Source: an uncultured Bacteroidia bacterium
Lineage (GTDB): Bacteria; Bacteroidota; Bacteroidia; Bacteroidales; F082
Assembly: GCA_902801465.1 (NCBI GenBank)
Contig: CADCIH010000019.1
Span: 1-64,000, forward strand
Length of the DNA: 64,000 bases
Direction: 5' to 3'
The position numbers and the translations under genes were made by a program. Positions 22,129 through 37,403 of the stretch are shown here, piece after piece. How positions within the stretch are numbered: position 1 is the stretch's first letter; each line of letters opens with the position of its first letter. Below the pieces are notes generated by a model, which worked only from the letters and a program-made list of their open reading frames with translations, made no database searches and was not told the DNA's origin.

Positions 22129-22290
22129 ATGAAAAAGTACGTTTGCGACGCTTGCGGGTATGTCTACGACCCGGAAGTCGGCGATCCCGATGGTGGCATC
22201 GCCCCTGGAACTCCTTTTGAAGCAATCCCTGACAGCTGGCACTGCCCGCTTTGCGGCATCGGCAAGGACAGCTTCTCCGTGATGGAATAA
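22129..22290 (+). CDS. Rubredoxin
   Basis: 53 residues. The two knuckles CDACGYVYD and CPLCGIG hold the single Fe(SCys)4 site, and [18 protein letters not shown] is the standard rubredoxin linker. It carries electrons at low potential to rubrerythrin and the flavodiiron protein. It starts 29 nt after rubrerythrin; its TAA overlaps the ATG of the next gene by one base (TAATG), so the two are translationally coupled. A complete, ordinary rubredoxin despite its small size. Confidence 0.95.
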
Positions 22291-24131
22291 TGGACACCAG
22301 TGCATTATTCAACATTGGTTATGGACTTTATGTCCTGACCACCCGTCACAACGACATCGACAACGGCTGCATCGTGAACACGGTGACGCAGGTCACCAGC
22401 AACCCCTTGCAGATCGCTGTCACCGTCAACAAAGGCAACTACACGCACGAGCTCATCATGAACTCGTGCGTGTTCAACGTCTCGATACTGACCACCGAGA
22501 CTCCGATGTTCGTCTTCGAACATTTCGGCTTCCAGTCGGGACGCAAGGTGAACAAATTCGCCAACTGCGAAGCCGAGCACCGCGCCGTCAACGGAGTCCT
22601 CTATATCCCGAAATACACCAATGCATTTTTGGCATGTAAAGTCAACAATAGTATAGACTTTGAAACACATACCATGTTCATCGCCGATGTGCTCGACGCC
22701 CAAGTGCTCTCCGACAAGCCTTCGGTGACTTACGATTATTACCAAAACCACATCAAGCCCAAGCCCCAGACCCCAAAGCCCAGCAACGGAAAGCGCCGCT
22801 GGGAATGCAAGGTGTGCGGCTACATTTATGAAGGCGATTTTCTACCCGACGACATCGAATGTCCCTTGTGCAAACACGGCAAGGAGGAGTTTGTGGAGAT
22901 ATTCGACGCTGAGACTCCGAAACAAAGTCCAATAACAATTAACATGAATCAAATCAAACTTACCGACAATATTTTCTATGTCGGCGTCAACGACCGCCGC
23001 ACCGAGCTTTTTGAAAACCACATGGAACTGCCTAATGGCGTTTCCTACAACTCCTACCTCATCGTCGATGAGAAGGTGGCCTTGATCGACCCTATCGAGG
23101 CTGGCTTTATCGAGGAGTATCTCTTCAAGGTGAAGTCGGTGCTGCAAGGCCGCAAGGTCGATTACCTTATTATTAATCACGACGAGCCCGACCACAGCAG
23201 TAGTATTGCGGCCGTGCTTCGTGAATGGCCTGAAGCTCAGGTGGTGGGCAATGCCAAGACCTTCGCCCCTCTTGAGGCCTTCTATGGTCCCATCGAGAAC
23301 AAGAAAGTAGTGGCTGAAGGCGAGACCCTTGGTCTCGGCACCCATACCCTACAATTCTTCATGGTGCCCATGGTTCACTGGCCAGAGTCGATGGTGACTT
23401 ACGAGCAAGCCAACGGCATCGTGTTCAGCAATGATGCCTTCGGCGGCTTCAGCGCCCTGAACGGCGGCATCTTCGACGACCAAGTAAACCTCGCTTTCTA
23501 TGAAGACGACATGCGCCGCTATTATGCCAACATCGTCGGCAAGATGGCGATGCAGGCCCTTAAAGCCATTGAGAAGCTCGGCGGACTGACAATCAAAATG
23601 ATCGCCCCCTCACACGGCCTGGTGTGGCGTTCCAACCCTGCCTGGGTCATCGGCAAATACACCCAATGGAGCAAGCACGAAGGCGAAGAAGGCGTCGTCA
23701 TCGTCTACGGCTCGATGCACGGCAACACCGGCGTGATGGCCGACATCGTGGCCCGTGGCGCCGCCGAGGCTGGTATCAAGGAGGTGAAGGTGTATGACGT
23801 GGCCAAGACCGAGATCTCGTTCATCATGAGCGACATCTGGAAGTACAAAGGCGTCATCATCGGAGCCTGCGCCCACTATGCCAACATGTTCCCCAACATG
23901 AACCTCTTGACCCACGAGATCAACGAGTTCAAGCCGAAAAGCAAGTGCTTTGGCATCTTCGGCGGCATGAGTTGGAGCGGTGGCGGCGTCAAGACCCTCG
24001 CCAAATATGCCGAGGAAGGCCAATGGAACCTCGTCGCCGAAAACGTCGAGGTGAAAGGCGCTCCCATCCGCGAGGAAGACTGGGATAAGCTTTACAACTT
24101 AGGAAAAACTGTTGCCGAGGCTATTCTCTAA
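22290..24131 (+). CDS. Flavin reductase-rubredoxin-flavodiiron protein triple fusion
   Basis: 613 residues from the ATG overlapping the rubredoxin stop. Residues 1-150 are a flavin reductase-like split-barrel domain, ~170-205 a rubredoxin (CKVCG, CPLCK: Cys173, 176, 191, 194), and ~220-613 an A-type flavoprotein. The last has diiron ligands in HDEPDH (297-302), His363 (MVHWPES), Asp382 (SNDAFGG) and the later PSHGLVW, then a flavodoxin FMN domain (VIVYGSMHGNTG). Such enzymes reduce O2 or NO to water or N2O; the fused flavin reductase and rubredoxin would pass NAD(P)H electrons internally. All diiron ligands are present, so it is probably active. Confidence 0.93.
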   Translation: MDTSALFNIGYGLYVLTTRHNDIDNGCIVNTVTQVTSNPLQIAVTVNKGNYTHELIMNSCVFNVSILTTETPMFVFEHFGFQSGRKVNKFANCEAEHRAVNGVLYIPKYTNAFLACKVNNSIDFETHTMFIADVLDAQVLSDKPSVTYDYYQNHIKPKPQTPKPSNGKRRWECKVCGYIYEGDFLPDDIECPLCKHGKEEFVEIFDAETPKQSPITINMNQIKLTDNIFYVGVNDRRTELFENHMELPNGVSYNSYLIVDEKVALIDPIEAGFIEEYLFKVKSVLQGRKVDYLIINHDEPDHSSSIAAVLREWPEAQVVGNAKTFAPLEAFYGPIENKKVVAEGETLGLGTHTLQFFMVPMVHWPESMVTYEQANGIVFSNDAFGGFSALNGGIFDDQVNLAFYEDDMRRYYANIVGKMAMQALKAIEKLGGLTIKMIAPSHGLVWRSNPAWVIGKYTQWSKHEGEEGVVIVYGSMHGNTGVMADIVARGAAEAGIKEVKVYDVAKTEISFIMSDIWKYKGVIIGACAHYANMFPNMNLLTHEINEFKPKSKCFGIFGGMSWSGGGVKTLAKYAEEGQWNLVAENVEVKGAPIREEDWDKLYNLGKTVAEAIL

Positions 24132-25184
24132 CTCTAAGGAGTCAACGGCAGGCAACTCAAGAGCTTCGATCCACTCTTGATGCAATTGTGGCGCTGGCAT
24201 CCCCATGTTGATAAAAACACTGTCAGTAGAGCACTGGAAGGCATTCTGCAAGAACCTCTTGACAGTGTTTTTTCCTTTGTATTCCTCCATGAAATTGAAG
24301 AACGACTCTCCCGCCCAGTAGGAGGCCTCCATGGTGAATTCTCCATTGAGGTCACAGTTGGTACTGATGAAATTGATGGAGTCGGAGGCTCTGACCTGAT
24401 GCCCGTTGTGCCTGCGGCAGAAGTACTCGGCGATGCCCTCACTGATCCAAAGATAGTGGTGAACGTCATTATTATAGTTCAAGGCAGTGAAGAACACGTA
24501 GTGGTTCATTTCATGCTGGAGCACCTTGACAAATCCATTGATATGGTCGCTTGGGACCTCAAAAACATCAGGGCTAAGTACGATGCCACGTGTCAAGCAG
24601 CCCAAGGGGCCGACTTGGATGATGGTGACGCCTGCCACGTTGGTGATATCGTAGTTGGGCTGTTCCAGCAGTTGGCAAGTGGTTTCCTTGTATTTGCCCG
24701 AGGTACTGGGAAGATAGAGGGCAAGACGACGTCCATTCACGGTGGAAGGATAGAAATACACCCCAAAGAGTTCCTTCAGCGGTTCGATGGTTTCCTGGGC
24801 CACACGCAACACATCTAAGGCATGACCTTGCCACAGAGCGTCTTCATCGAACTCATAATACACGATAAAATTCGCGTTTTCAACTTGTTGCCAGCCACTC
24901 CGAACCTGGCCCTGATCTTTGTCCAAAGGGTTCAGTGTATGCTTATCTTGACCCAAGTCGGTGTTATTGTCCCAGTCGAAAGGTCCGACATCAGAAACAG
25001 TGATTCCTTGGTCTCGGTTGTTACGGTCGAGGCTTCGAAGGTATTCCTTGGTGACATCAGGGATGTTGGCATACTTCAGCGGTGGACGGTGCAATCCAAT
25101 GTCGTAGACCTTTCCCACCACCAATGCGATGACAAGGAACAAGAGGGCTATTGTTAGTAATGTCGTTCCGTATTTGCTTCTCAT
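24099..25184 (-). CDS. Membrane-anchored HExxH metallopeptidase (MA clan)
   Basis: 361 residues. An N-terminal membrane anchor (residues ~8-25) is followed by an extracytoplasmic body with the zinc motif HEMNH (His224, Glu225, His228) and WISEGIAEYF, which supplies the third ligand (Glu249 or Glu253), as in gluzincins. No close named family recognised. Last gene of the tubulin-like operon: its ATG overlaps the stop of the 982-residue gene by 4 nt. Its 3' end overlaps the convergent flavodiiron gene by 33 nt. Likely role: proteolysis in the periplasm as part of the operon's machine. Confidence 0.72.
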   Translation of the reverse strand: MRSKYGTTLLTIALLFLVIALVVGKVYDIGLHRPPLKYANIPDVTKEYLRSLDRNNRDQGITVSDVGPFDWDNNTDLGQDKHTLNPLDKDQGQVRSGWQQVENANFIVYYEFDEDALWQGHALDVLRVAQETIEPLKELFGVYFYPSTVNGRRLALYLPSTSGKYKETTCQLLEQPNYDITNVAGVTIIQVGPLGCLTRGIVLSPDVFEVPSDHINGFVKVLQHEMNHYVFFTALNYNNDVHHYLWISEGIAEYFCRRHNGHQVRASDSINFISTNCDLNGEFTMEASYWAGESFFNFMEEYKGKNTVKRFLQNAFQCSTDSVFINMGMPAPQLHQEWIEALELPAVDSLELENSLGNSFS

Positions 25185-28129
25185 ATCATTATTTCAACGA
25201 TTCTATCATAATTCTGTTTTATATCTCCTTCGATCATATGTCCAATGCGGAATCCGTCGCCTGTGGTCTCGCAATAGAGGTAACGGCGGCCATTGTGGAC
25301 AAACAGCACCGAATCGACATCTTTCACCTGAATCAAGTCACGCCATTCCTCACGGAATTCCAACCCGATGGCGGCGTGTCCACGCTGTTCGGATAGCATG
25401 ATCAAGACGTTGTGACCCAAGGCATGGAACAAGGCGGCCATGAGTGACGACTTACAGTCGCAGTCGCCTTCCTTGTCGTAAAGCACCTCATCGGGGAAGC
25501 GCATATACTCTCGCATGCGATCAATGCTGACGCTTTCCGCATCGAGACGGTATTCGATGTTGGGAGCCTGCACAAAGTCGAGCGCAAACTGCAAGGTATC
25601 CACTTCATTGCAACCGGCTTTCTCGGTAACTGCCCTAATATAGTCGGCCAGCATATTCACTTTCTCCATACGGCTGCTTTCCTCAAAGAGATACTGGAAC
25701 ATACTGCGGATGTTCATCTCATAGGTATTGCCGTTGTGCCCGTAATCTTGGAACGGGTTGACAGACCTCAGGTCTTCAATTCTCGTATTCGAGAAGTCAA
25801 GGGAGAACTTACCTTCGAGCCTGATCCCTCGTTCCGAATCGAGTGTCCAGTTGTAGAAACAAGTTTTGTCATCGTTGAGGAGGATGGCGTCGTCTTCCAT
25901 GCCGTCTTCATCCAATGGAAGAAGCACTTTGTCCTCAAAGTCGTCGAGGCTCATGCCTTCCATGGTGGCGCCGATGGTGAAACGGTCGCCCGTAGTCTCG
26001 CAATAGATGTAACGCTTGCCATTTTCAAGAATGGTGAGTTTCTCTATCTTGTCCATGCTGAAATACTCCCCTTCAATCAGGTTGACCAGTGAGACCTCGA
26101 TGCCTATGGCGGCATGTTGGAACTTCCTGGATGACATATACAGCACATTGTAACCCATCACATGAAACAGCATCGAAGCCAGTAGCGACTTGCTGTTGCA
26201 GTCACCTTCCTTGTCATACAATGTCTCATCGGGGAAACGGATGTAGTTCTCATAATAGTTGATTGCCTGGCAGTCGCGGTTGTTCTTGAACTGGATATTG
26301 GGTTCCTGGACAAAGTCGAGGGTAAACTGTATCTTCTCCAATGTTGTCAGCCCCTGTTTTTGCGCTATGCGATTGATATACGCAGCTATATATCTCACAC
26401 GGGCAAGCATGGGTTTGTGCTCGATGAGGAAGCTGTACATCTCAGTGATATAAGTCTTGTCGGACTTATCCTTGCGTTGGGCAAAGAAAGGATTGCATTG
26501 CCGCATGGCCTTAATGTCCCTCTCGGAAAAATAGAGGTTCAAGTCGCCATGGAGTTTTTGTCGGGCATAGAGCGGGTCAAGATCCCATTCGTAGGACCGG
26601 GCAATATCGCCATCGGGGTTCTTCACCTCTGACAAATCGCCGTCCTCATGTTCCTCGTCTTCGAGATACGAGGAAGAAACATACCAAGGTTTGTTGGCCC
26701 CATAAAGGGTCATGTTAATCGCCACACCGAAGGCAATGGCGAAGATCATTGGAAGCAAGTCGTAGTCGTAATAGTGGATTGTAGCATAACCGGCCAAGAG
26801 TGCCAGTATGATGATAGCGATGTTAAAGAGACCCAGATTGAGGTTCTTGTTGAAAAGATCCAACTTGCTTTGGAACGAGTTGGAGTTTTCAATCCTGTCA
26901 ATCTTGATGAGTCGCACCAAGGCCCAAAGCACAAAATAACAGGCCGTAAGAATACCGACAGCTCGGAAATCGTCACCTATCAAGGGCATTTGAAGCACAC
27001 CTGTGTTGACTGTATAAAGTACGAGGAACAAGATGGAATAAATGAATGAGGTCAGCAAGGCGGTGTCTTTCCAGCCGTAGGGATGTTCCCGATAGTATTC
27101 AGAGTATCTCCGGGGTTGGCGGTCTTCACCCAGCAAAGCATAGGCACAAGCTCGAGCCTCTGACGACAGACCTCCGTCAATGGTGCTGTGGAATCCAGTA
27201 TAGTAGCATATAGCTGCAGGTTCCTTTACTAGCTTCTTCTCTCTTTTCTTCTTTTCCTTTTTCTTTTTACCCTCGTCCTCCGTTTTCGCTGGTGCGGTTT
27301 CAGTATCCTCTGTCTCAACAGGGACCTCAGGATCCACTGGCGTTTCAGGCTCGGAGACAGGCTCCGGTTCAGAGACAGGCTCGGGGGCAGAGACAGGCTC
27401 GGGTTCTATGACTGGTTCATGTTCTGCCGGAGTATTGGATTCGGCAGGGAGGTCTTGGTCGTTGGTGTTATCGACTTCCCAGAAAGCCGGGGAATCATGC
27501 TTGTTGTCAGTAAATTCAAATGTTTCGGAAGGTTCTTCAGGTGCTCCAGCATCGTTTCCGATAAACACTGCGGTGTTCTGTTGTAAAAGACGTTCCTTCT
27601 TTACTTTGTCGGGTTCTCCGTAATAGGCATTCAATGTCTTGACGAGCCAAAGGGTCTTCCAGCTGCGTTCACCTTCGATGGATGGTGTCTCAGGGTCGGA
27701 TGGGCGGGCGCAATAGCCGATGAGTTCTTTTTTCCGTCTGCCTTTTTGTTGGCGGTAGATATAACCAAGTTCATCAACTACGGCATCCCGTTCAAAGCTG
27801 ATGTAACCGCATTGCACATAGCGGGGTTTCTCGGTCTCGTCTTCGATATCGGAAGTCAGCACTTCCACCGATCCGATATTCTTTTTCGACTGGCCATCAA
27901 CGATGACTCTACCAATGGGGATTTTTGATCCGCTTCCAGAGAGGTGCACCTCCCCTGCCGTGTGGTCGCCGTTCATGTCGAGGTATCCTATCTCAGTCAA
28001 AGGCTGTCTGGATTTGGGATGCATCTTGATCCATACGCGCACTTTCGAGCAGCGCCTGACCACAACGATAATGACGATGAAAGTCAGTACAAACAGCGAA
28101 TACAGCCATGTGAGTGTTTCTATCAGCAT
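25181..28129 (-). CDS. Large membrane protein with two transglutaminase-like domains and a Glu-Pro linker
   Basis: 982 residues. Anchor at ~5-25, then a soluble region, a Pro/Glu repeat linker (~238-275, units of EPVS), a Lys-rich stretch (288-302) and about four membrane segments (355-475). The C-terminal half holds two copies of a transglutaminase/cysteine-protease-like domain, each with DKEGDC, HAAIG and CETTGD, giving Cys644-His672-Asp715 and Cys890-His918-Asp958 triads. This suggests a thiol peptidase or crosslinking activity, doubled by internal duplication. It starts 7 nt after the 961-residue gene and overlaps the metallopeptidase start by 4 nt. Precise function unknown. Confidence 0.72.
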   Translation of the reverse strand: MLIETLTWLYSLFVLTFIVIIVVVRRCSKVRVWIKMHPKSRQPLTEIGYLDMNGDHTAGEVHLSGSGSKIPIGRVIVDGQSKKNIGSVEVLTSDIEDETEKPRYVQCGYISFERDAVVDELGYIYRQQKGRRKKELIGYCARPSDPETPSIEGERSWKTLWLVKTLNAYYGEPDKVKKERLLQQNTAVFIGNDAGAPEEPSETFEFTDNKHDSPAFWEVDNTNDQDLPAESNTPAEHEPVIEPEPVSAPEPVSEPEPVSEPETPVDPEVPVETEDTETAPAKTEDEGKKKKEKKKREKKLVKEPAAICYYTGFHSTIDGGLSSEARACAYALLGEDRQPRRYSEYYREHPYGWKDTALLTSFIYSILFLVLYTVNTGVLQMPLIGDDFRAVGILTACYFVLWALVRLIKIDRIENSNSFQSKLDLFNKNLNLGLFNIAIIILALLAGYATIHYYDYDLLPMIFAIAFGVAINMTLYGANKPWYVSSSYLEDEEHEDGDLSEVKNPDGDIARSYEWDLDPLYARQKLHGDLNLYFSERDIKAMRQCNPFFAQRKDKSDKTYITEMYSFLIEHKPMLARVRYIAAYINRIAQKQGLTTLEKIQFTLDFVQEPNIQFKNNRDCQAINYYENYIRFPDETLYDKEGDCNSKSLLASMLFHVMGYNVLYMSSRKFQHAAIGIEVSLVNLIEGEYFSMDKIEKLTILENGKRYIYCETTGDRFTIGATMEGMSLDDFEDKVLLPLDEDGMEDDAILLNDDKTCFYNWTLDSERGIRLEGKFSLDFSNTRIEDLRSVNPFQDYGHNGNTYEMNIRSMFQYLFEESSRMEKVNMLADYIRAVTEKAGCNEVDTLQFALDFVQAPNIEYRLDAESVSIDRMREYMRFPDEVLYDKEGDCDCKSSLMAALFHALGHNVLIMLSEQRGHAAIGLEFREEWRDLIQVKDVDSVLFVHNGRRYLYCETTGDGFRIGHMIEGDIKQNYDRIVEIMI

Positions 28130-28136
28130 AATGCAA

Positions 28137-31022
28137 TCAGTCCTTGGGGTTCATGATTTTCCTAACTATTTTACGGTACTCGTACGACTCGCTGAAACGA
28201 CTTGCGTCGAACAGTTTCAGCCACTCGCTCGAGTTGTTGTCCGGGCATATTGCCCAGAGGATAAGCGAGGAGGTGGCGATGGCGCCGTCATCCGGCTCCA
28301 ACTCTTCCTGATAGACGCGGATTCTCCTCATCTCCTGATCGAAATCCTCCTTAGGCAGAATTCTGTTGAAGGAGAAGTGTCCAAAGCAGCGCCAACGGGT
28401 GACGAAGATGAGTTTCTGGTAAAGTTCGTCATACTTTGCTGTCTGGAGACGAGTGGTGTAGAGCGGCAGGTATCTTGACAACATATCGTCGATATCGATG
28501 TTGACCTTGACATCGGCGAATTCGGTATCGGATTGGGAGGTGATCTCACCATTGGTGGCAGCATAGGCTATCATAGGCTCGAGCAAGTCAAACTTGTCGA
28601 TCTTCTTCCTATACTGGACCAGCTTCTCACCCACGGTAGGTTGTTCTCTGGGAATCATCTCGCCCTTAATACCTTTAATCAGTTGGCGTACGCTATCCTG
28701 TTTTAGGCTTTCCCATTTTTCCTCCCTCTCTCTTTGCAGTTCTTCGGGACTGACAAAGACGTAATCTCCTATCTTATCGTCGAACCGACGTGCGTGTTTC
28801 TCGGGAAGGGCAACATCTTGGAACAGCACGGCGATCTCATCGTTGAAGAAATTGATAAGCATGAAATAATGCTCCTTTTCCAGTTCGTTGACGAATCTAG
28901 GTGTATAGTTCACACGGATACGGCATCCTTCCACTTCTTTAGTCGGAATGAGATAGTCGTCACCGAAATGCCCTCCGTTGAGGGGTTGGTTGAACATGCT
29001 GATGGGGAACACCGTCCTTGCTTCGGGGCTGGGCATTGCGATGCTCACCTCACGGCGTATCCTCTTGCATCGATTGAGGTATTCATCACAAAGCGCAATC
29101 ATCTTGTCGTAGAAGCCAACAGCCTCGAATTCGATACGGTTGGCTATACGCGAATAAGCGTCATGCTTGTAATAGGCTTTCAGCACCCGTACGCAACTGG
29201 CCTTTTTCCGAAGGTATAGGAAAAATAGGACAAACTGGATGCCCAAAGGGACCATAAACAGTCCAACAGCCCACCAGAAGGCATTGTCATACACGTTGCC
29301 AAGATTGATGAACCTGGGCGAAAGGAAATCCAAGACGGGCAAGATACCCAACACCAACATGATACCAAGGAAGAAACAACGCGAAAGCGTCGAAAGCATG
29401 GTCTTCTCTTTGCTGAGGAGGTTCTTCAGCCTCGACATGACGGTTTTTTTCATGTTGTCGCATCCAGCACCGTCATTCTTGTTCTTCACATCATTAACGT
29501 AGGCATCGTGATATTCCTCGAAATGGTCGCATTCGTCGCTAGGAATGATGGGAATCTCATAAATGATCTTGTGCCAGTATTCCCTCTCGATAGCCTGTTG
29601 GACATCGGCCTTCTCTTTCGACATCTGCTCCTGCAAATTCTTGAAAAGATACTCGATGGTAGGCAATCCACCAGCGCTCATGTTCACCTTTGAAATGACC
29701 TGGGTGAGCGAAGGCAGAATGGAGGCTTCGGACTCCTTGAATGATCTTTGGCAATACGCCGAAATCTCGTCAAGTTGTTTGCCTGTGGCTTCCTCGGTAC
29801 GTTGGAGAATTCCCCTCAACAGTTCCGCTGGATAGTAACGCAGATAGTTCAGGTAATAAAGTTTCTTCAGGTTCCTGTGAAGGAAGTTCCGGATGGGATG
29901 CGGCTTGGGCGACAACTCCTCGGTATCGTCGATATCGAAACGATCCACATTGACCTGTTTGACAAACTTGTCAACGCGGTACAATTCTTTATCGACAAGC
30001 CTAAACGTCTGGTCTGGCTTGGAGTGGTCACCTTCTTCCTTAAAGCTGTTCAGAATCTCATAAGCCACCCGGTTGGTGTCGTTTTTGTCCTCATAACTCA
30101 TGTCAAAGAACACCGAGGCGGCTCCCATCGACATGTAGAAAGCCTCGTCAGAGCCAGTGCCGTGAATCAAAGGATGGTTGGCATCACAAGCAAGAAAGAG
30201 ATGCACTAGGCACTGGAGGAGGTATTCGGCTTGGCCCTTCTCGTCCAAACGAGGATAAGAACACTCAGTACGGTTTTGAACATCCTGATACAGAAGCATG
30301 TAGTCGTATCCTCGAATGGCTGAGATGTTATGCTGAACCTCTATCTCGTTAAAGAGCTTCAGCATCTTGGCTCGTTCTTCCACCTTACGCGTGTTGATGT
30401 CGCACGGCACATAAAGCATCCCGAAGACACACATGCCTTGATGGATATGACCTGGGAGGAAACGCCCCTTCTCCTTTTGGAGCAGTGCGGCAATCGAGGC
30501 GAAGACCAGATGCGTAAGCCTCTCGGTGACATCTCCTAGCACGACAATATTAATGGTCTGATAGGGTCGGATGTTGGAAGCCCGCAACTCATCAATGAAA
30601 TCCTTGGCCTTCCGGACGACGGTTTCCTGAAAGAAATATAGCCGTTTTGCAATCCGTTCAATCTGGCCAGTATCCTCAACATCCACATCGCCAAAAAAAT
30701 CATCGTACGACAAATCGGTGTAATACCAATAATTGCCATTGATGACAGCTTCCCTGGCAGCTTTCTTCTTGTCCTCTTCCTCAAGTTCTTCCTCCCTGGT
30801 CCTTTTGAGTTTCACATTGGCATTCTGTTCGGCATAGTCTTGATCTTCTTCGACCGAGGCATTGTACTCAACCTTGCTTTCGGAATCATCCATAAGCGGT
30901 GGAGTCATCTTGTCTGCTTTCGATCGCTCTATGAATACATGGTCGATTTGACTGATGAGTTCCAAGAACTCGTCGCGCCGTTTTGATTTTTTGGTGATAT
31001 CTAGGATCCAAAGAGGAAGCAT
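28137..31022 (-). CDS. Large membrane-associated partner of the tubulin-like protein, unknown family
   Basis: 961 residues. The first ~545 are soluble, with an acidic/charged coiled stretch at 45-90 (EEELEEEDKKKAAREA) and an alpha/beta region at 155-310 (INIVVLGDVTERLTH, GMCVFGMLYVP, LIHGTGSDEAFYMSMGAAS) that looks like a nucleotide-binding or FtsZ/tubulin-partner fold. Two membrane segments (546-567, 582-604) follow, then a ~350-residue soluble C-terminus. I do not recognise a named family. It begins 24 nt after the tubulin-like gene and ends 7 nt before the 982-residue gene. Inferred to link the tubulin-like filament to the inner membrane. Confidence 0.65.
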   Translation of the reverse strand: MLPLWILDITKKSKRRDEFLELISQIDHVFIERSKADKMTPPLMDDSESKVEYNASVEEDQDYAEQNANVKLKRTREEELEEEDKKKAAREAVINGNYWYYTDLSYDDFFGDVDVEDTGQIERIAKRLYFFQETVVRKAKDFIDELRASNIRPYQTINIVVLGDVTERLTHLVFASIAALLQKEKGRFLPGHIHQGMCVFGMLYVPCDINTRKVEERAKMLKLFNEIEVQHNISAIRGYDYMLLYQDVQNRTECSYPRLDEKGQAEYLLQCLVHLFLACDANHPLIHGTGSDEAFYMSMGAASVFFDMSYEDKNDTNRVAYEILNSFKEEGDHSKPDQTFRLVDKELYRVDKFVKQVNVDRFDIDDTEELSPKPHPIRNFLHRNLKKLYYLNYLRYYPAELLRGILQRTEEATGKQLDEISAYCQRSFKESEASILPSLTQVISKVNMSAGGLPTIEYLFKNLQEQMSKEKADVQQAIEREYWHKIIYEIPIIPSDECDHFEEYHDAYVNDVKNKNDGAGCDNMKKTVMSRLKNLLSKEKTMLSTLSRCFFLGIMLVLGILPVLDFLSPRFINLGNVYDNAFWWAVGLFMVPLGIQFVLFFLYLRKKASCVRVLKAYYKHDAYSRIANRIEFEAVGFYDKMIALCDEYLNRCKRIRREVSIAMPSPEARTVFPISMFNQPLNGGHFGDDYLIPTKEVEGCRIRVNYTPRFVNELEKEHYFMLINFFNDEIAVLFQDVALPEKHARRFDDKIGDYVFVSPEELQREREEKWESLKQDSVRQLIKGIKGEMIPREQPTVGEKLVQYRKKIDKFDLLEPMIAYAATNGEITSQSDTEFADVKVNIDIDDMLSRYLPLYTTRLQTAKYDELYQKLIFVTRWRCFGHFSFNRILPKEDFDQEMRRIRVYQEELEPDDGAIATSSLILWAICPDNNSSEWLKLFDASRFSESYEYRKIVRKIMNPKD

Positions 31023-31046
31023 GAGGGAAAAAGAGATTAATTGGGT

Positions 31047-34000
31047 TTACCTAATAAAATTGTGCACGGTGTCGAACTCCTCGCGGACAATGGAGAAGAG
31101 CACATTGTAAAGCCTTTTCTCGGAAGGCTTCATGGCGTTCTTCTTCCATTCGATAAGTTTGTTCAATAAAGCCTTATGCTTCTCTTCATAATTCTGTTTG
31201 AAAATGGTCTCGCCCGTGACATCTTGGCCATTCACCATGTGGTGTTGACGCAAGATGGCTTGAAGGATGGCCTCGGTGGTCTCGCCAAAACGATAGTTGA
31301 AATACAACGAAATGTATTGGGCGAATTGTTCCGTGAATCCAGTGCCTTCAATTTCCTTGAAGAGAGGACGTCCGTTATCCTCTAATTTCAGGACAATCTG
31401 ACCTGTCTGGGGATGCATCGAGAGTGCTTCAGGCTGTGCAATCTTGAAATAGGTCTTGCACTTCGGATCGGTGAGATACATGGAATCCGTGTATGACTGC
31501 ATGTCGTATTCGTCGAAATAGAAGAACGGATGTGTCTCTGCACGGAACTCGTCAAGAACGAGCATTTTGGCGAACGAACGGTGCTGTTGCAACACTTCCT
31601 CCGGAAGGTCGTCCATGGTGATCTTGCCAAGGAACTGAGCAAAGTCGTGATGGAAGTGGTATTTCTCACGGAAGGAGGCTTTGTCATAGACCATCTTGAT
31701 CGAGTCGTAGATACGGTAATCACCCAAAGAGAGACCGTATTTAGATTTCAACACAAGTGCAGTATTCTCATCGTCTGCTTTTTCAAACCTATGTTTGGGA
31801 TTGCCTTTTTGGTAGCCCAGCATCTCAGCGGCCAGATCTTCACTGCCAGCAACAAAGACGATATGTTCCTCTTTCTTCATGACATCGATACGGTTGGCGT
31901 TGTAGCTGAAGAACAAGGCGGGATTGAGACTGCGGCGCACATTGTCTTTTTCCTCATTGGTGAGGTCGGCAAAGAAGGATGATATCTTCTTGTTGTCCCA
32001 TTTTTCCTGAATCTCCTTGCTTTCATGCATCTGCTTATCCAAGATGGTGATGGCCATCGAAAGGAAGTCTTCCACCACCTTCTCGTTGGAACGCTCCAGA
32101 TTGGGGTTACAGAAGAAGCGGGTTTCGGCGGTCTTCTCTTCCTCTTTGCTCTTGGGATCAACCTTGGTGAAGAACACCTGATACTGTCCGCTCTTTATGG
32201 CCTGCACAGTATCGTCGTTTACCGCGTTGTAGATATTGTCGTTAAGGAACTTCTCAAGGTCCTTACGTTCAGGGGTCTCGGCCTCGTCGTGTTGGGCCCT
32301 GATGATGGTCGTGTAGAGTTTGCTGAAAATATTGTCGGCAATCCATCCGTTGCCATCGGCGATGGTAGTAAGCTGCGGCAGATACACTGTGGTCACATCC
32401 AAGGCAGCGGCACCCATGTCAGCAGAGAGCTTGTTGTAGAGGCGCACTGCCTCGCGGTTCATTTCAGAGGCTTTGTCCTTGAAGCTGGCGATATGTTTCT
32501 TCAACTTCGACAACTCATCGTTTTTCTCATCGGTGCAGAAGTCCTTCTTGAGGTCGTGTGCCCACTTGATCATGGCCAGTTCAATGCTTTGGTCAACATA
32601 CGACTGAAGGGCACTGATATAGTTTTGGATGTCGTCCTTGTTGGAACCAAAGGTCTTTTCCTTGAAATCGACCTTTTGGGCACTTTCACACAACTTTTGC
32701 AGTTTTTCTTCCTGTTCCTGGAGGCTGCTTTCCAGTCGCTTGAAGCTGTCCTCTTCCGCTTTGAACTGGGTGGCCATGTACTTTCGGACGGCATCGACGG
32801 CATCATGGGCAAAGGTCAGGCCCTTGGAACGGATCCAACGCTCTGCTTGCGACCAAATGCCTTCGACAATCTTCTTTTTGTAATCGTCGCGTTTATCGGG
32901 GTTGTTGGTCTCGTTTCCTATGGCTTTTTGGGCATCCTTCACCATGCCTTGGATCATGCTCAAGTCCAGTTCCGAGTTCAGCTTTTCAGAAGCGGAATCT
33001 TGTATCTCGAGGGTGTCTTTCAGCGACCTGATGGCATTGCCGTTGGCGATAACGTTTGCAATGGTTCCCGGGACTTTCCCATCGAGTTCCCTGAACAGCT
33101 CCATTACCAAGGCCGGGATCTTGCTCTCTTCCACCTTGGCGTCCTTACCCGACTCGGCCAACAGCCAGCTGCGCAGGATATCTCTTCTCATGCGGAATCG
33201 CATGTATTTGTTGAAGTGTTCGTTGGGTTTTTGCAGGGAGACGTAACCCATGGGAACGAGGAAGTTCTCATGATTACGATCCATGATGTCGTTCATATAA
33301 TTGTCGATATCGCTGCGGAAAGTCGCTCCTGCCTTGCCATGATGCAGGTGGTACAGCATCTCGGCAGTATTGCGGTACATGGTGCGAGTGTTGCCCAGAC
33401 TGGTACCCTTGTCGGTTTGGATATCCACCGGAATCATGTAATAGAATGGGCAGTAACGCTTGTCGGGATCGATGAGGGAGTAGTCGTTTTGGAAGGCGAG
33501 ACGGTGCATCACGATGTTCTGCTTCTTGTCGAAGCTCATGGCTTTGAACGCTTCCAATTCAGTGAATACGCCATAGGCATTGAGGGTGTATTTATCCTCG
33601 GTGGCGTTGCTGTCGATATACACTTTAGGCATATAGAGTGTCAAAACCAGTTGAGGATCGCCGTTACCCACCACTTGATGGTGGATTTGGTTAAGGTGAT
33701 ATAACACATCGTTCAGAATGCCTGAACCTGTACCGCCCAAGGTACTTCCCACTACCCAATAGTAGATGATGCAGTCCTCGCCACCGACGGTCTTCACATC
33801 GTTGAGTGCGGAGACAGCAGCTTGCACCTTGCTCTGAAAATCAGACAGGGAGTGTGCAAAAGCGATACGGCTCTTCATACGGAAAGCTCCCGCACCGAAT
33901 GCCAGCGGCTGGTCCGGAATCTTAGTAGCTAACTCGGGTGAACAAGCTTCAAGGATGCGCTTGTTGATGAGCGTATTCTGGTCTTGCTTGGCCTCGTAAT

Positions 34001-34289
34001 AGATGGCGCTAGGATTGGCTCGACCCAGATTGATAAGGTCGGTTTGGGGGCTGATGAACGGCACTTTGCCCTGTTCAAAAGTAGCACGGTTACGTTTGTT
34101 AGCTTCGTCGATGTCGCGCTGGTCGGTATCGATGAACAGGAACCGGTAGCTGTCGTTCATCGCCTGAAGGCGGCTTTTGGTTGCCGTTGCCTCGGAAAAG
34201 CGTTTCTCGTACACTTTTTCCTTGATTTGGGAAACGGTCTGGCACCCAGAGCCTCCCAATCCGATAAAGATGTGTTTTTCGTTTGCCAT
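31047..34289 (-). CDS. Tubulin/FtsZ-like GTPase (Tubulin_2 type), large form
   Basis: 1080 residues. The N-terminal GTPase half has the glycine-rich IFIGLGGSG (residues 8-15) and the tubulin/FtsZ signature GSTLGGTGSG (181-190), with FGAGAFRMKSR between them. It is therefore a divergent tubulin superfamily member, far longer than FtsZ (~400). A coiled-coil-rich middle (about 510-640, e.g. RLESSLQEQEEKLQKL) and an unrecognised C-terminal half follow. Expected: GTP-dependent filament or ring formation. Encoded 27 nt after the VWA gene and 24 nt before its likely membrane partner. No DNA-segregation genes or FtsA are adjacent, so plasmid-type or cell-division roles are less likely than envelope remodelling. 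Confidence 0.82.
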   Translation of the reverse strand: MANEKHIFIGLGGSGCQTVSQIKEKVYEKRFSEATATKSRLQAMNDSYRFLFIDTDQRDIDEANKRNRATFEQGKVPFISPQTDLINLGRANPSAIYYEAKQDQNTLINKRILEACSPELATKIPDQPLAFGAGAFRMKSRIAFAHSLSDFQSKVQAAVSALNDVKTVGGEDCIIYYWVVGSTLGGTGSGILNDVLYHLNQIHHQVVGNGDPQLVLTLYMPKVYIDSNATEDKYTLNAYGVFTELEAFKAMSFDKKQNIVMHRLAFQNDYSLIDPDKRYCPFYYMIPVDIQTDKGTSLGNTRTMYRNTAEMLYHLHHGKAGATFRSDIDNYMNDIMDRNHENFLVPMGYVSLQKPNEHFNKYMRFRMRRDILRSWLLAESGKDAKVEESKIPALVMELFRELDGKVPGTIANVIANGNAIRSLKDTLEIQDSASEKLNSELDLSMIQGMVKDAQKAIGNETNNPDKRDDYKKKIVEGIWSQAERWIRSKGLTFAHDAVDAVRKYMATQFKAEEDSFKRLESSLQEQEEKLQKLCESAQKVDFKEKTFGSNKDDIQNYISALQSYVDQSIELAMIKWAHDLKKDFCTDEKNDELSKLKKHIASFKDKASEMNREAVRLYNKLSADMGAAALDVTTVYLPQLTTIADGNGWIADNIFSKLYTTIIRAQHDEAETPERKDLEKFLNDNIYNAVNDDTVQAIKSGQYQVFFTKVDPKSKEEEKTAETRFFCNPNLERSNEKVVEDFLSMAITILDKQMHESKEIQEKWDNKKISSFFADLTNEEKDNVRRSLNPALFFSYNANRIDVMKKEEHIVFVAGSEDLAAEMLGYQKGNPKHRFEKADDENTALVLKSKYGLSLGDYRIYDSIKMVYDKASFREKYHFHHDFAQFLGKITMDDLPEEVLQQHRSFAKMLVLDEFRAETHPFFYFDEYDMQSYTDSMYLTDPKCKTYFKIAQPEALSMHPQTGQIVLKLEDNGRPLFKEIEGTGFTEQFAQYISLYFNYRFGETTEAILQAILRQHHMVNGQDVTGETIFKQNYEEKHKALLNKLIEWKKNAMKPSEKRLYNVLFSIVREEFDTVHNFIR

Positions 34290-34316
34290 AGATAAATTTA
34301 TTAATATTGTTATTAC

Positions 34317-35930
34317 TTATCTTACCATTACCACCTTGACCGAGTGGGTAATCTCACTCCTCGCCCGCCCGCACTGCACTCGTATGGTGGAAGGACCGTC
34401 GTAGCTGATCTTGCCCGATAGGGCCTTGCCTTGGGCAACGTATCTCTTGGTGCCTCTCCATGCGAAACAAGGCTTGGTAAACACCAGAAATGGATTTGCT
34501 TTTTTCTTCTCAATGAGAAACTGCCATTCGGCATCATCGACTCTGCAACGACCTGTGCCTCCATTGCCCACATGAATCACGGCGGACGGACTCTGTTTGG
34601 GCAGACGGACTACCTCATCAATTTGATTGCCCTCACTGTCATAGAACGTGAAGTTGCCTTTAAAGCAAAGCTTGCGGTTACGGATCATGGAGTGGATCAC
34701 TCCTATGATGTACAGAAGAATGAGCAAGAGAATGATGACCGTAGCCACGAAAGAAAGGAAGAAAGTGAACAGCCAACGGCTTTCGCTTTTCTTGGTGTTG
34801 GGAAGGGGCTTCTTGACCCCCAGGTTGGTGAGCTCGTCGTCGTAAGGCGTAGGCAGGAGAATGCCCAAATTAAGTGTATCATTCAACTGATGGAATCCGA
34901 TATCACCATGTTTGATCTGACCCAAATCGAGATGCATGACCGAGTCACAAGTAACCGTGTAGTTCTCGGAATTGTTCTCAAACATAAAATCATCGCCCGA
35001 CAAGTAGGTAGAGTCGATTCGCATCCTAGGATAGAGTTTGCTAGGCTTCCAATGGATGTCGGCGGTCACATTCCCGTCGATATCGGTCTTGGTCTCCAGC
35101 CGGATGGGACTCATGCGGTTTTCGTTGTCGATGATAGCCTTCAGTTTGGTCACCATGATGTCGCGCTTGAGTTGTTCGAACCATTGTCCGATCATCACGC
35201 CGGGATTGGTGAGGGGAACAATCTCCAGTCCGCCGCCTTCTTCAGGAAACACTTGGTTTTTCAGCTGAGGCAGGCAATAACCAGGTTTTGATTCATCAAC
35301 GGGAAGACGCAAGGCAACACAACGTGTATAGATTCCGTTGGTGGCAGCAGCGATCTCATCGTGGAGCCGCTCTATCTCATCGGATCTAAGTTTACGTTCG
35401 GCGGGGTTCTCGCCCTTGACATCGTTTCTGAAGTCAGTCAGCAGGATCACCACATTCACTTTATAATCCCTGTTGTTTTGCAACACCTTGGCAATGGTGC
35501 TGATCACCTTGGGGATATCAGTGTGATTCTTGAATTCCTGTGAGTAGGACGGATCGGTGTATAGGGTTTGAATGTTTTTGTGCAAGGCTTCCCTGACCTC
35601 CGAGTTAATGACGCCACAAAAGCTCAGCATGTTCGGCAAAGCTTCGGTACCGAAAGGGATGACATCCACGCGGTCGCCATCGGGTAAAGCCTGGATGAAG
35701 GGCCTTAAGGCCTTTACGACATCTTCGCTGTATTGTTTCATCGTGCCTGACACATCCACGGCGAACACATAGTGGGCAGGATATCTCATCAGTTCCTCAC
35801 GATAAAGTTCTGTCAACTGGGGATAAACTTGTTCTAGATAGGCCAAGGAGGACTGTTGTTGGGCCATCAAAGATGATGTGCCCCATACCATCATGGCCAC
35901 TAAGAGAAAACACTTAGAAAACGATTTCAT
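34317..35930 (-). CDS. Signal-peptide VWA-domain protein with C-terminal membrane anchor and cytosolic tail
   Basis: 537 residues. Signal peptide (cleavage near residue 23, LMAQ), then a von Willebrand factor A domain with a MIDAS-like DVSGT (Asp59, Ser61, Thr63; DxSxT instead of the usual DxSxS) and VNVVILLTDFRND. A membrane segment at ~387-413 is followed by ~120 cytosolic residues of beta-rich sequence (KGNFTFYDSEGNQ, VGNGGTGRCRV) that could bind the tubulin-like protein. It could sense or bind a periplasmic ligand through Mg2+ and signal inward. It lies 12 nt after the lipoprotein gene and 27 nt before the tubulin-like gene. Confidence 0.78.
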   Translation of the reverse strand: MKSFSKCFLLVAMMVWGTSSLMAQQQSSLAYLEQVYPQLTELYREELMRYPAHYVFAVDVSGTMKQYSEDVVKALRPFIQALPDGDRVDVIPFGTEALPNMLSFCGVINSEVREALHKNIQTLYTDPSYSQEFKNHTDIPKVISTIAKVLQNNRDYKVNVVILLTDFRNDVKGENPAERKLRSDEIERLHDEIAAATNGIYTRCVALRLPVDESKPGYCLPQLKNQVFPEEGGGLEIVPLTNPGVMIGQWFEQLKRDIMVTKLKAIIDNENRMSPIRLETKTDIDGNVTADIHWKPSKLYPRMRIDSTYLSGDDFMFENNSENYTVTCDSVMHLDLGQIKHGDIGFHQLNDTLNLGILLPTPYDDELTNLGVKKPLPNTKKSESRWLFTFFLSFVATVIILLLILLYIIGVIHSMIRNRKLCFKGNFTFYDSEGNQIDEVVRLPKQSPSAVIHVGNGGTGRCRVDDAEWQFLIEKKKANPFLVFTKPCFAWRGTKRYVAQGKALSGKISYDGPSTIRVQCGRARSEITHSVKVVMVR

Positions 35931-35942
35931 AATTGCATTTGT

Positions 35943-37160
35943 TTAAACGATAGTTGTCTTAAGCACATCGAAAACAATGATCAAAGTGCCTTCTTGGTTG
36001 AGGGTGATCTCGTACCCCGGGTGATAATAGGACTCACCGAAACTTACACCGGGTTCCTCGGGATCATATTGCCCTTTAAAATGCAGGGTGGATTGGGAAT
36101 CGTAGGTGTCTTCGTAGATCTCGTTGCAGATTGACTTGGCCTCTTCCTTATAGGCATAGGCATCGGCGTAAGGCACGTTCTCAATCTTTATGGTGATGCC
36201 GCAAACATGGTCGAAAGCCCTCCAGGTATAACGGCGGCCTATCTCCATGTCATGGATGGCACCTTGGCCATGATACACCTTCAGCCAACCATCGAGCGAG
36301 CGCGGATACTCGTCGGTGAGCCATTCGTCGGCCTGCTTATGATAACCCCTAATGCAGGTGTTCAATTCCGGCTTAGGCAGTGAAGGACCGTAAAGCTCAT
36401 AGATTTTGGCGTAGGTCTCTTCAAAAGTACCGGCAGGATAGTAATGCATCAACTGATGCTCCACATGGTTGGTCACGGAGTTGAGCATGCCCAAGTTGAC
36501 ATAGTAAAGGCACTGCCAGTGTTCATCCACATAAAAATGGTGGCCTTCATTGTTATAGTGAGTGACAGGGATGCCACAGATGGTAGTATCATAGACCTGT
36601 CCCCAATTGTCAAGGAAAGTATCATAGTTATAGGCCCGACGACTCATCGCCATCACCGTGTTGAGGATGCCTTCGGAAGCCTTAAGGCCAAAGTTGTAAG
36701 GCGGGTCGCCACCTTCGCCAGCCGCCAGTGTGATACCCTTGTACATGGCTGTACGGTCGAGGAACTCATGCTGGTCGTAGTATTGGATCTTCCCTTCGTT
36801 GGTAATCTCGCCAAAGAAGCTGAAGGCCGAGGTCTTGTTGTCGGTAGCATAAAAGCCGTAATAAATGGCGGATCCGATAATGTTGGTATGGTCAGGATCG
36901 ATATAATCGATGTCCTTCAACCAGAACACACCGCCATCGGTACTCTTGGCCAGCACAGCGCTATGTCCAAAAGTCTCGGAGAGCTTGAATTCGTAGATAC
37001 CTGGAGCCATCGCATCGACAAGGTCGCCGGCATAGGCATGCTTGGTGAAGTTGGGACAGCCTTCCGGGAAGCCGTCGGGATGACCGCTTTTCCCACAGGA
37101 GGCGAAACAACTCAACAGCACCGCCATGGCGCCGATGAGGAAAAATCGTGTGGTTTTCAT
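35943..37160 (-). CDS. Lipoprotein of unknown function, first gene of the tubulin-like operon
   Basis: 405 residues from the ATG at 37160. Lipoprotein signal (MKTTRFFLIGAMAVLLSC, Cys18 or Cys22). The mature part is rich in Tyr, Trp and His (EGHHFYVDEHWQCLYYVN, HQLMHYYPAGTFEETYAK) with paired cysteines, but matches nothing I recognise. No acidic surface-export signal follows the cysteine, so it probably faces the periplasm. The open frame extends to 37205, but the promoter box lies at 37184-37191, so the internal ATG is the start. It leads the six-gene unit and may be its outer-membrane or periplasmic contact. Confidence 0.7.
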   Translation of the reverse strand: MKTTRFFLIGAMAVLLSCFASCGKSGHPDGFPEGCPNFTKHAYAGDLVDAMAPGIYEFKLSETFGHSAVLAKSTDGGVFWLKDIDYIDPDHTNIIGSAIYYGFYATDNKTSAFSFFGEITNEGKIQYYDQHEFLDRTAMYKGITLAAGEGGDPPYNFGLKASEGILNTVMAMSRRAYNYDTFLDNWGQVYDTTICGIPVTHYNNEGHHFYVDEHWQCLYYVNLGMLNSVTNHVEHQLMHYYPAGTFEETYAKIYELYGPSLPKPELNTCIRGYHKQADEWLTDEYPRSLDGWLKVYHGQGAIHDMEIGRRYTWRAFDHVCGITIKIENVPYADAYAYKEEAKSICNEIYEDTYDSQSTLHFKGQYDPEEPGVSFGESYYHPGYEITLNQEGTLIIVFDVLKTTIV

Positions 37161-37183
37161 GATTTTACGAAGTTTAGTCTTTG

Positions 37184-37191
37184 CAAAGATA
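37184..37191 (-). promoter_or_regulatory. -7 promoter box for the six-gene tubulin-like operon
   Basis: TATCTTTG (minus), 23 nt before the ATG at 37160, with a TTTG (-33-like) about 18 nt further upstream at 37214-37217. All six genes down to 24099 follow with gaps of 27 nt or less and no internal promoter box was seen. Confidence 0.7.
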
Positions 37192-37229
37192 ATGGTTTTT
37201 TCCAATTATCAAACCGTTTGTGCAAATCT

Positions 37230-37403
37230 TCACTTCTTCTTTCTTCCCGACTTTCTTAAAGCTTCAGCAATAATCCACTGGAGTTGCCCGTTGACAGAAC
37301 GAAATTCGTCGGCAGCCCACTTCTCCACCGCCTCCATGGTTTCAGCATCCACGCGAAGCAGAAAAGTCTTGGTGTTGGCGCTATTTTCCTTCTCCTTTGC
37401 CAT
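37230..37403 (-). CDS. Arc/ribbon-helix-helix-type small DNA-binding protein
   Basis: 57 residues. The strand KTFLLRVDAETMEAVEKWA followed by FRSVNGQLQWIIAEALRK matches the ribbon-helix-helix pattern of Arc-like repressors: a beta strand, then two helices with the conserved N-G-Q-L-x-x-I-I core. Basic C-terminus (SGRKKK). It starts 2 nt after the CPBP protease stop, so it ends the SPFH-PH-CPBP unit, and lies directly upstream of the tubulin-like operon promoter (46 nt from its stop to the -33-like element region). It could autoregulate its own unit or control the neighbouring promoter. Confidence 0.8.
   Translation of the reverse strand: MAKEKENSANTKTFLLRVDAETMEAVEKWAADEFRSVNGQLQWIIAEALRKSGRKKK

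Follow-up and report, generated by a model that had tools for sequence, protein, structure and literature searches.

FtsZ-like proteins of the FtsZl1, or Tubulin_2 (PF13809), family are encoded in operons together with VWA genes, as described by Makarova and Koonin (2010; PMC2875224) from sequences that included Bacteroides caccae. FtsZl1 has been without an established mechanism since 2010, partly because nothing visible connected the cytosolic FtsZ-like protein with its neighbours in the periplasm and the membrane, a point raised by a reviewer of that paper. Here we report on a six-gene operon (g1 to g6; Table 1) in the window, by which we mean the whole stretch of 64,000 nucleotides (contig CADCIH010000019.1, positions 1 to 64,000; assembly GCA_902801465.1) from an uncultured Bacteroidia bacterium (Bacteroidales; F082). 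With a probability of roughly one half, its products form an accessory machine of the inner membrane that belongs to the FtsZl1 kind and has two paired tubulin-fold proteins, g3 and g4, as its basis. An earlier reading made from the letters of the window (the sequence-only reading) had called this machine undescribed, a claim that does not survive, since operons with Tubulin_2 and VWA are the FtsZl1 system of 2010.

In the accessible part of that account, the FtsZl1 operons have in common with the present one a large FtsZ-like protein with GGTGSG and a coiled-coil middle, a VWA gene with a metal ion-dependent adhesion site (MIDAS) and membrane partners. They differ in their frequent, though not universal, P-loop GTPase, kinase and OmpA neighbours, none of which was detected by Pfam among the six proteins here, and in that the C-terminal tubulin half, which is predicted here for g3, could not be identified there. 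Neither a second tubulin nor a protease was found in the available text of that account, to which its supplementary families A1-A2 and B1-B9, which might include g4, are additional. The GAP1-N2 systems (Kaur et al., 2020; PMC7159879) share, in the available text, tubulin-domain proteins, extracellular vWA with transmembrane (TM) helices and a predicted multimeric assembly, and those of Firmicutes carry two tubulin genes each. Unlike our operon, with its lack of a Pfam P-loop GTPase, they belong to Firmicutes and Actinobacteria and have a TRAFAC GTPase and GAP1 at their centre; a membrane-anchored pseudo-tubulin or fused papain was not found in the same text. In the single experimental study of a Tubulin_2 protein that was found, insertion mutants of Synechocystis sll0445 are reported to be impaired in phototaxis and the product to associate with pilus assembly proteins, a likeness in that a Tubulin_2 protein is associated with membrane complexes; the partners in the sll0445-0447 cluster are annotated as FtsA- and DivIC-like, however, and the terms 'vWA' and 'von Willebrand' are absent from the text (PMC9880817). 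The system of sensor and tubulin has been known since 2010, whereas the anchored partner and the protease links were not found in the literature searched; for the anchored pseudo-tubulin this comprised titles and abstract openings, with subscription papers and preprints mostly uncovered.

Results

A predicted pair of tubulin-fold proteins

Computation predicts two tubulin-fold proteins in the operon, one of them without the glycine loop, together with their topology. The sequence-only reading had placed the 1080-residue g3 in the tubulin/FtsZ superfamily, and a profile search bore this out with a Tubulin_2 match of 121.2 bits (Pfam cut-off 27; E 7.7e-35), the single one in its own genome. GGTGSG (T4) is kept in 33/33 window-type g3 rows, where the 33 rows of this and the other site counts are the window plus 32 loci, L007 being dropped as identical to L009. 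The g3 model is mostly helical from residue 356 to 629, which suggests an extended helical region after the GTPase domain, and the C-terminal half is predicted to be tubulin-like. An acidic T7 residue is required for GTP hydrolysis in FtsZ and tubulin; its retention in g3 was considered and dropped, Asn and not the acid being common to most rows by eye.

The second protein, g4, scored as a tubulin/FtsZ fold in a model-based fold test. Its tubulin halves flank the TM hairpin and both are predicted by the charge rule to be cytosolic; the glycine-rich T4 loop (GG.G.G) is present in 0/33 g4 rows. Residues 95-345 matched a widened Tubulin_2 profile at E 1.3e-4 (probability 54; above 60 shuffles), a result that depends on trimming. 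Despite the negative direct comparison, kinship of g3 and g4 was reconsidered because of the structure and of the bridging partners of two further genomes (G862 and G895). It is predicted, with good support, that g4 is a diverged tubulin relative of g3 from which the glycine loop has disappeared and that its hairpin holds it in the inner membrane. Of the two-pass membrane protein seen by the sequence-only reading the hairpin stands, and its predicted tubulin-like nature, the most informative part, had been missed. We take the pair to resemble BtubA/BtubB (2btq turned up in the analysis) and alpha/beta-tubulin, in which two tubulin-fold subunits likewise go together; unlike in those, one subunit here would be membrane-anchored without a glycine loop and both have long helical inserts, the pairing itself being a prediction.

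Conservation and distribution

A scan of 84,980 species genomes gave 33 loci with a g3 that is 52-72% identical, a lower bound because the search used exact peptide patterns. They are not independent: L007 and L009 share an assembly, and two further pairs (L032/L033 and L014/L030) are near-identical. By title the carriers are nearly all metagenome-assembled Bacteroidales (Paludibacteraceae, Muribaculaceae, Bacteroidaceae and others), with one labelled Fibrobacter; rumen and faeces are frequent sources. The order of g3-type, g4-type and g5-type (transglutaminase, TG) genes is kept in 33/33 loci, as had been expected for Bacteroidales. Neither of the two outcomes that the sequence-only reading had named as fatal to it, a lack of this order in relatives or a predicted fold of the 1080-residue protein unlike tubulin/FtsZ, was observed. 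A VWA gene precedes them in 32/33 (L003 begins too near; the gene is partial in L008 and L033), with MIDAS residues D59, V60 and S61 kept in 30/30 g2 rows, and a g6 relative follows in 25/33. No g1 relative was found by blastp (E 1e-3; a diverged copy could be missed) in the 30 related loci with upstream sequence, which L003, L008 and L033 lack. The six-gene unit proposed earlier narrows to a conserved core of four genes, to which g6 is commonly added. Flanking genes differ among most of the 33 loci.

A strict single-sequence search of Bacteroidales genomes placed the window subtype in 1/295, its own genome only. Within the window's family, Tubulin_2 was over the cut-off in 13/173 genomes, of which only the window's matches the g3 profile, and a phylum sample had a Tubulin_2 gene in 7/392 genomes. 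By this distribution it is a rare, accessory system.

Downstream of the operon, in two loci without g6, lie genes whose products start TIR-like by eye (L021:19416-23220 and L034:16011-19847). A two-TM family is found downstream near these same two loci and also near L026, and a lipoprotein-like family of 141-154 aa in L003, L004, L005, L012, L027 and L034.

Partners and proteases of other Tubulin_2 systems

In the family, 13 genomes have a Tubulin_2 gene, and in 12 of them (all but G767) the surroundings of the gene were looked at as well. A partner directly follows the tubulin gene in 9/12 systems, window included; seven of the nine partners have two TMs, and those of G738 and G807 were assigned by alignment with the L066 partner and position only. 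In G715 the partner is on another short contig. In the two same-genus systems scanned, papain was recognised as a domain of the partner (E 8.7e-19 and 1.4e-19), and the partners of G715, G738, G772, G792 and G807 align along the papain-type partner region. G522 has the order of the window, with VWA and Tubulin_2 genes followed by one for a 722-aa protein and then by a TG gene like g5 (E 5e-15); its 722-aa protein matched the tubulin profile at E 4e-6, with TMs under the hydropathy cut-off. Against the widened tubulin profile the two-TM partners were mixed: L097/L098 gave E 5.6e-13, L050, whose TMs fall below the hydropathy cut-off used, E 4e-6, and the papain type E 1e-3.

Other kinds of locus were also seen. 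L046, L067 and L068 are Tubulin_2 loci without a large two-TM partner, in which the next protein starts YGICTN- or GICTN-like and several signal-peptide proteins follow. Tubulin-like proteins of ~490-550 aa below the Tubulin_2 cut-off (L042, L043, L044 and L063) are possibly a separate short family. In further subtypes, HExxH multi-TM proteins come after the two-TM partner (L047:1068-4904 and L069:15341-19006), the one in L047 having a weak metallopeptidase match below cut-off.

Topology and protease-like sites

The VWA of g2 is predicted to lie outside and its C-terminal tail of ~120 aa in the cytosol. For g5, mean K+R over 33 rows is 0 before TM1, 5.0 after TM1 and 0.1 in the TM4-TM5 loop, and because of this charge distribution around the TMs both TG domains are probably cytosolic, a soft prediction that runs counter to the periplasmic transglutaminase of the sequence-only reading. 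By the same rule g6 is predicted to be periplasmic, and the envelope location proposed earlier for several parts agrees with this charge-based topology.

Both g5 triads, Cys644-His672-Asp715 and Cys890-His918-Asp958, are complete in the window protein. Across the g5 rows a TG Cys is intact in 21/33 and none is in 12/33, which speaks against transglutaminase chemistry being general. In TG2 both Cys and His are present in 18/18 full copies; the TG1 Cys is lost in 27/33. The HExxH...E site is intact in 16/25 g6 rows and lost in 9/25; both kinds of site are intact in 6 rows, and at least one is in 31/33. No significance is claimed for these counts because the rows are related by descent.

Empty site

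In the same-genus genome G800 (82% complete), the flavoprotein and membrane-protein genes from the two sides of the operon stand face to face. Its alignment ends at window position 24121 (77%) and resumes at 37234 (73%), 132 bp replacing 13,112 bp, so that all six genes, g1 among them, lie inside the missing segment save the last 23 bases of g6. G800 is the single genome behind this empty site; five others (G749, G756, G765, G776 and G794) have the two flanking genes on one contig and are uninformative on insertion because these are tens of kb apart. The flanking membrane protein is CAAX-protease-like by our own reading, not from a family search. There is no tRNA within the window and no direct repeat of >=16 nt pairing the two cassette ends, and searches for the cassette proteins on plasmids, phages and viral contigs were negative. 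The G+C of the operon, 0.488 against 0.525 and 0.529 in the flanks, is suggestive of a mobile element and not decisive. The conserved gene order, the lack of the entire cassette in one relative and the recurrent linkage to proteases can be read from the sequences themselves.

Layout of the locus

The six minus-strand open reading frames (ORFs) at 24099..37191 were all found where the sequence-only reading had them; four of the junctions are gaps (12, 27, 24 and 7 nt) and the fifth is an overlap of 4 nt. In the ORF listing g1 starts at a TTG at 37205, upstream of its ATG, and at its 3' end g6 shares 33 bp with the convergent flavoprotein gene. The putative -7-like box is at the place given by the sequence-only reading for its promoter and follows what we take to be the consensus. 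Pfam identified VWA_2 in g2 (E 2.8e-8) and DUF553 (E 5.4e-7) and Transglut_core (E 7.8e-5) in g5; g6 had weak matches only (0.001, below cut-off), g4 nothing meaningful and g1 no match, and NCBIfam gave no match over its cut-offs for the operon proteins. Searched against PDB sequences, neither the g3 nor the g4 profile picked up a tubulin, the g2 VWA profile had no match, the TG profile returned nothing useful and g6 had a weak microbial collagenase match only (E 0.002).

Beside the operon, window 22251-24131 (+) encodes, by our own reading, a flavin reductase-rubredoxin-flavoprotein fusion, which is split in two or has an internal stop in many same-genus relatives. Between g1 and the next gene, 37230-37403 (-) encodes a 57-aa protein, possibly ribbon-helix-helix-like, whose DNA aligns with the empty-site genome.

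Table 1. Features of the operon region in window coordinates
Feature	Position	Strand	Description
g1, predicted lipoprotein	35943..37160	-	405 aa from ATG; lipobox-like LLSCFASC by eye; no family
g2, VWA protein	34317..35930	-	537 aa; signal peptide (by eye); VWA ~55-187; TM ~394-412
g3, Tubulin_2/FtsZl1 protein	31047..34289	-	1080 aa; GLGGSG (T1), GGTGSG (T4), long helical insert
g4, membrane-anchored pseudo-tubulin (predicted)	28137..31022	-	961 aa; TM hairpin 549-604 within helical insert
g5	25181..28129	-	982 aa; ~5 predicted TMs, then two transglutaminase/papain-like domains
g6, gluzincin-like metalloprotease (predicted periplasmic)	24099..25184	-	N-terminal anchor; HEMNH ... EGIAEY
TATCTTTG, putative -7-like box	37184..37191	-	TTTG 18 nt upstream
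Segment, accessory cassette limits	24122..37233		132 bp in its place in same-genus G800 (empty site)

Discussion

We infer a machine in which the pair assembles, the VWA protein controls it and proteolysis is the output. g4 would stay anchored and would not cycle, offering GTP-loaded g3 a subunit to assemble on, in the way that alpha-tubulin serves beta-tubulin. An envelope ligand would bind the periplasmic VWA of g2, and the signal would reach the g3/g4 array by way of its membrane helix and its tail in the cytosol. Assembly or disassembly of the array would control local proteolysis, carried out by g5, a TG-like cysteine protease in the cytosol, and by g6, a metalloprotease in the periplasm; among relatives this part would fall to the papain domain built into the two-TM partner. 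More tentatively, and at somewhat under even odds, many FtsZl1 systems may be tubulin pairs of a GTP-cycling subunit and a pseudo-tubulin lodged permanently in the inner membrane, with an alpha/beta-like division of labour of separate origin from eukaryotic tubulin and BtubAB, which would act as a VWA-gated membrane switch positioning or releasing proteases.

A number of results weigh against a paired, protease-controlling machine. With residues 1-345 of g4 the widened profile gave only E 0.0053 (probability 6.8), the narrow g3 profile was not significant (E 0.35 and 0.11), and the C-terminal halves of g3 and g4 had no significant match (E 0.14). Foldseek gave no E <= 0.001 for g4, with a helical toxin as first row, and its top rows for g3 were dynamins and helical toxins; parts of the g3 GTPase domain were modelled with low confidence, and the acidic T7 residue is not conserved, by eye, in the Tubulin_2 proteins here. 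The failed narrow comparisons, the dependence of the widened one on trimming and the Foldseek result are what would be expected if g4 were an unrelated membrane protein beside an FtsZl1 gene, its tubulin look a prediction artefact and the pair non-existent, which we consider very improbable. As to partners, G748 and G764 (2/12 family systems) have no two-TM partner, the gene after the L049 tubulin (phylum sample) has no TM, L045, L046 and L048 have no downstream neighbour of partner size, and the partners of L069/L070 (E 0.06) and L047 (E 0.5) did not score as tubulin. As to topology and output, the g5 stretch after TM5 is acidic (K+R 2.7, D+E 7.3; 33 rows), many g5 relatives have fewer than five TMs by hydropathy, and both an intact TG Cys and a g6 gene are missing from the near-identical L032 and L033.

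The pair might instead organise an inner-membrane complex (secretion, gliding, pilus-like or membrane shape) as a structural scaffold for envelope or motility, the protease-like domains binding peptides or maturing one component; this is possible, if doubtful. The phototaxis defect and pilus-protein association of Sll0445 (PMC9880817), the membrane remodelling proposed in the available text of Makarova and Koonin (PMC2875224) and the mostly ordinary Pfam families of flanking proteins (among the 25 of 88 shown) are consistent with it, and so are the losses of the TG1 Cys (27/33) and of the g6 site (9/25), which would be expected of binding domains. However, patchy presence (the subtype in 1/173 family genomes) is unusual for a core structural machine, and the one or more protease sites retained in nearly all rows (31/33), like the papain of other subtypes, count against it. 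A conflict or immune device, in which the VWA senses phage or toxin damage, the pair multimerises and a released protease stops infection or kills the cell, seems to us unlikely. The available text of Kaur et al. (PMC7159879) does count the neighbourhoods with tubulin and vWA that occur in Firmicutes and Actinobacteria as predicted conflict systems, the cassette is wholly absent from one relative, proteases vary between systems, and genes near L021 and L034 start TIR-like by eye; matches to TIR models were to one member each of the flanking proteins scanned, among which the L021 gene was not included. Yet the six proteins and two relatives had no PADLOC (2023) match (E <= 1e-3), the P-loop GTPase family of the Kaur systems is missing by Pfam, and there was no match on phages, plasmids or viral contigs. 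Among 74 of 104 listed flanking proteins (the list excluding L009, L030 and L033, and the rest hand-dropped as near-duplicates, as short or for economy), matches came from 18 PADLOC families, none of them with more than two members matched and several generic; these raw counts fail to support defence.

If g4 is a membrane-anchored pseudo-tubulin, it would supply the link that was missing between the cytosolic FtsZ-like protein and its membrane neighbours and would make the mechanism of FtsZl1 testable. If, further, g3 assembles on g4 and controls a protease, the family would represent another prokaryotic use of paired tubulins and, to our knowledge, the first tubulin pair to have an integral membrane protein as one of its subunits.
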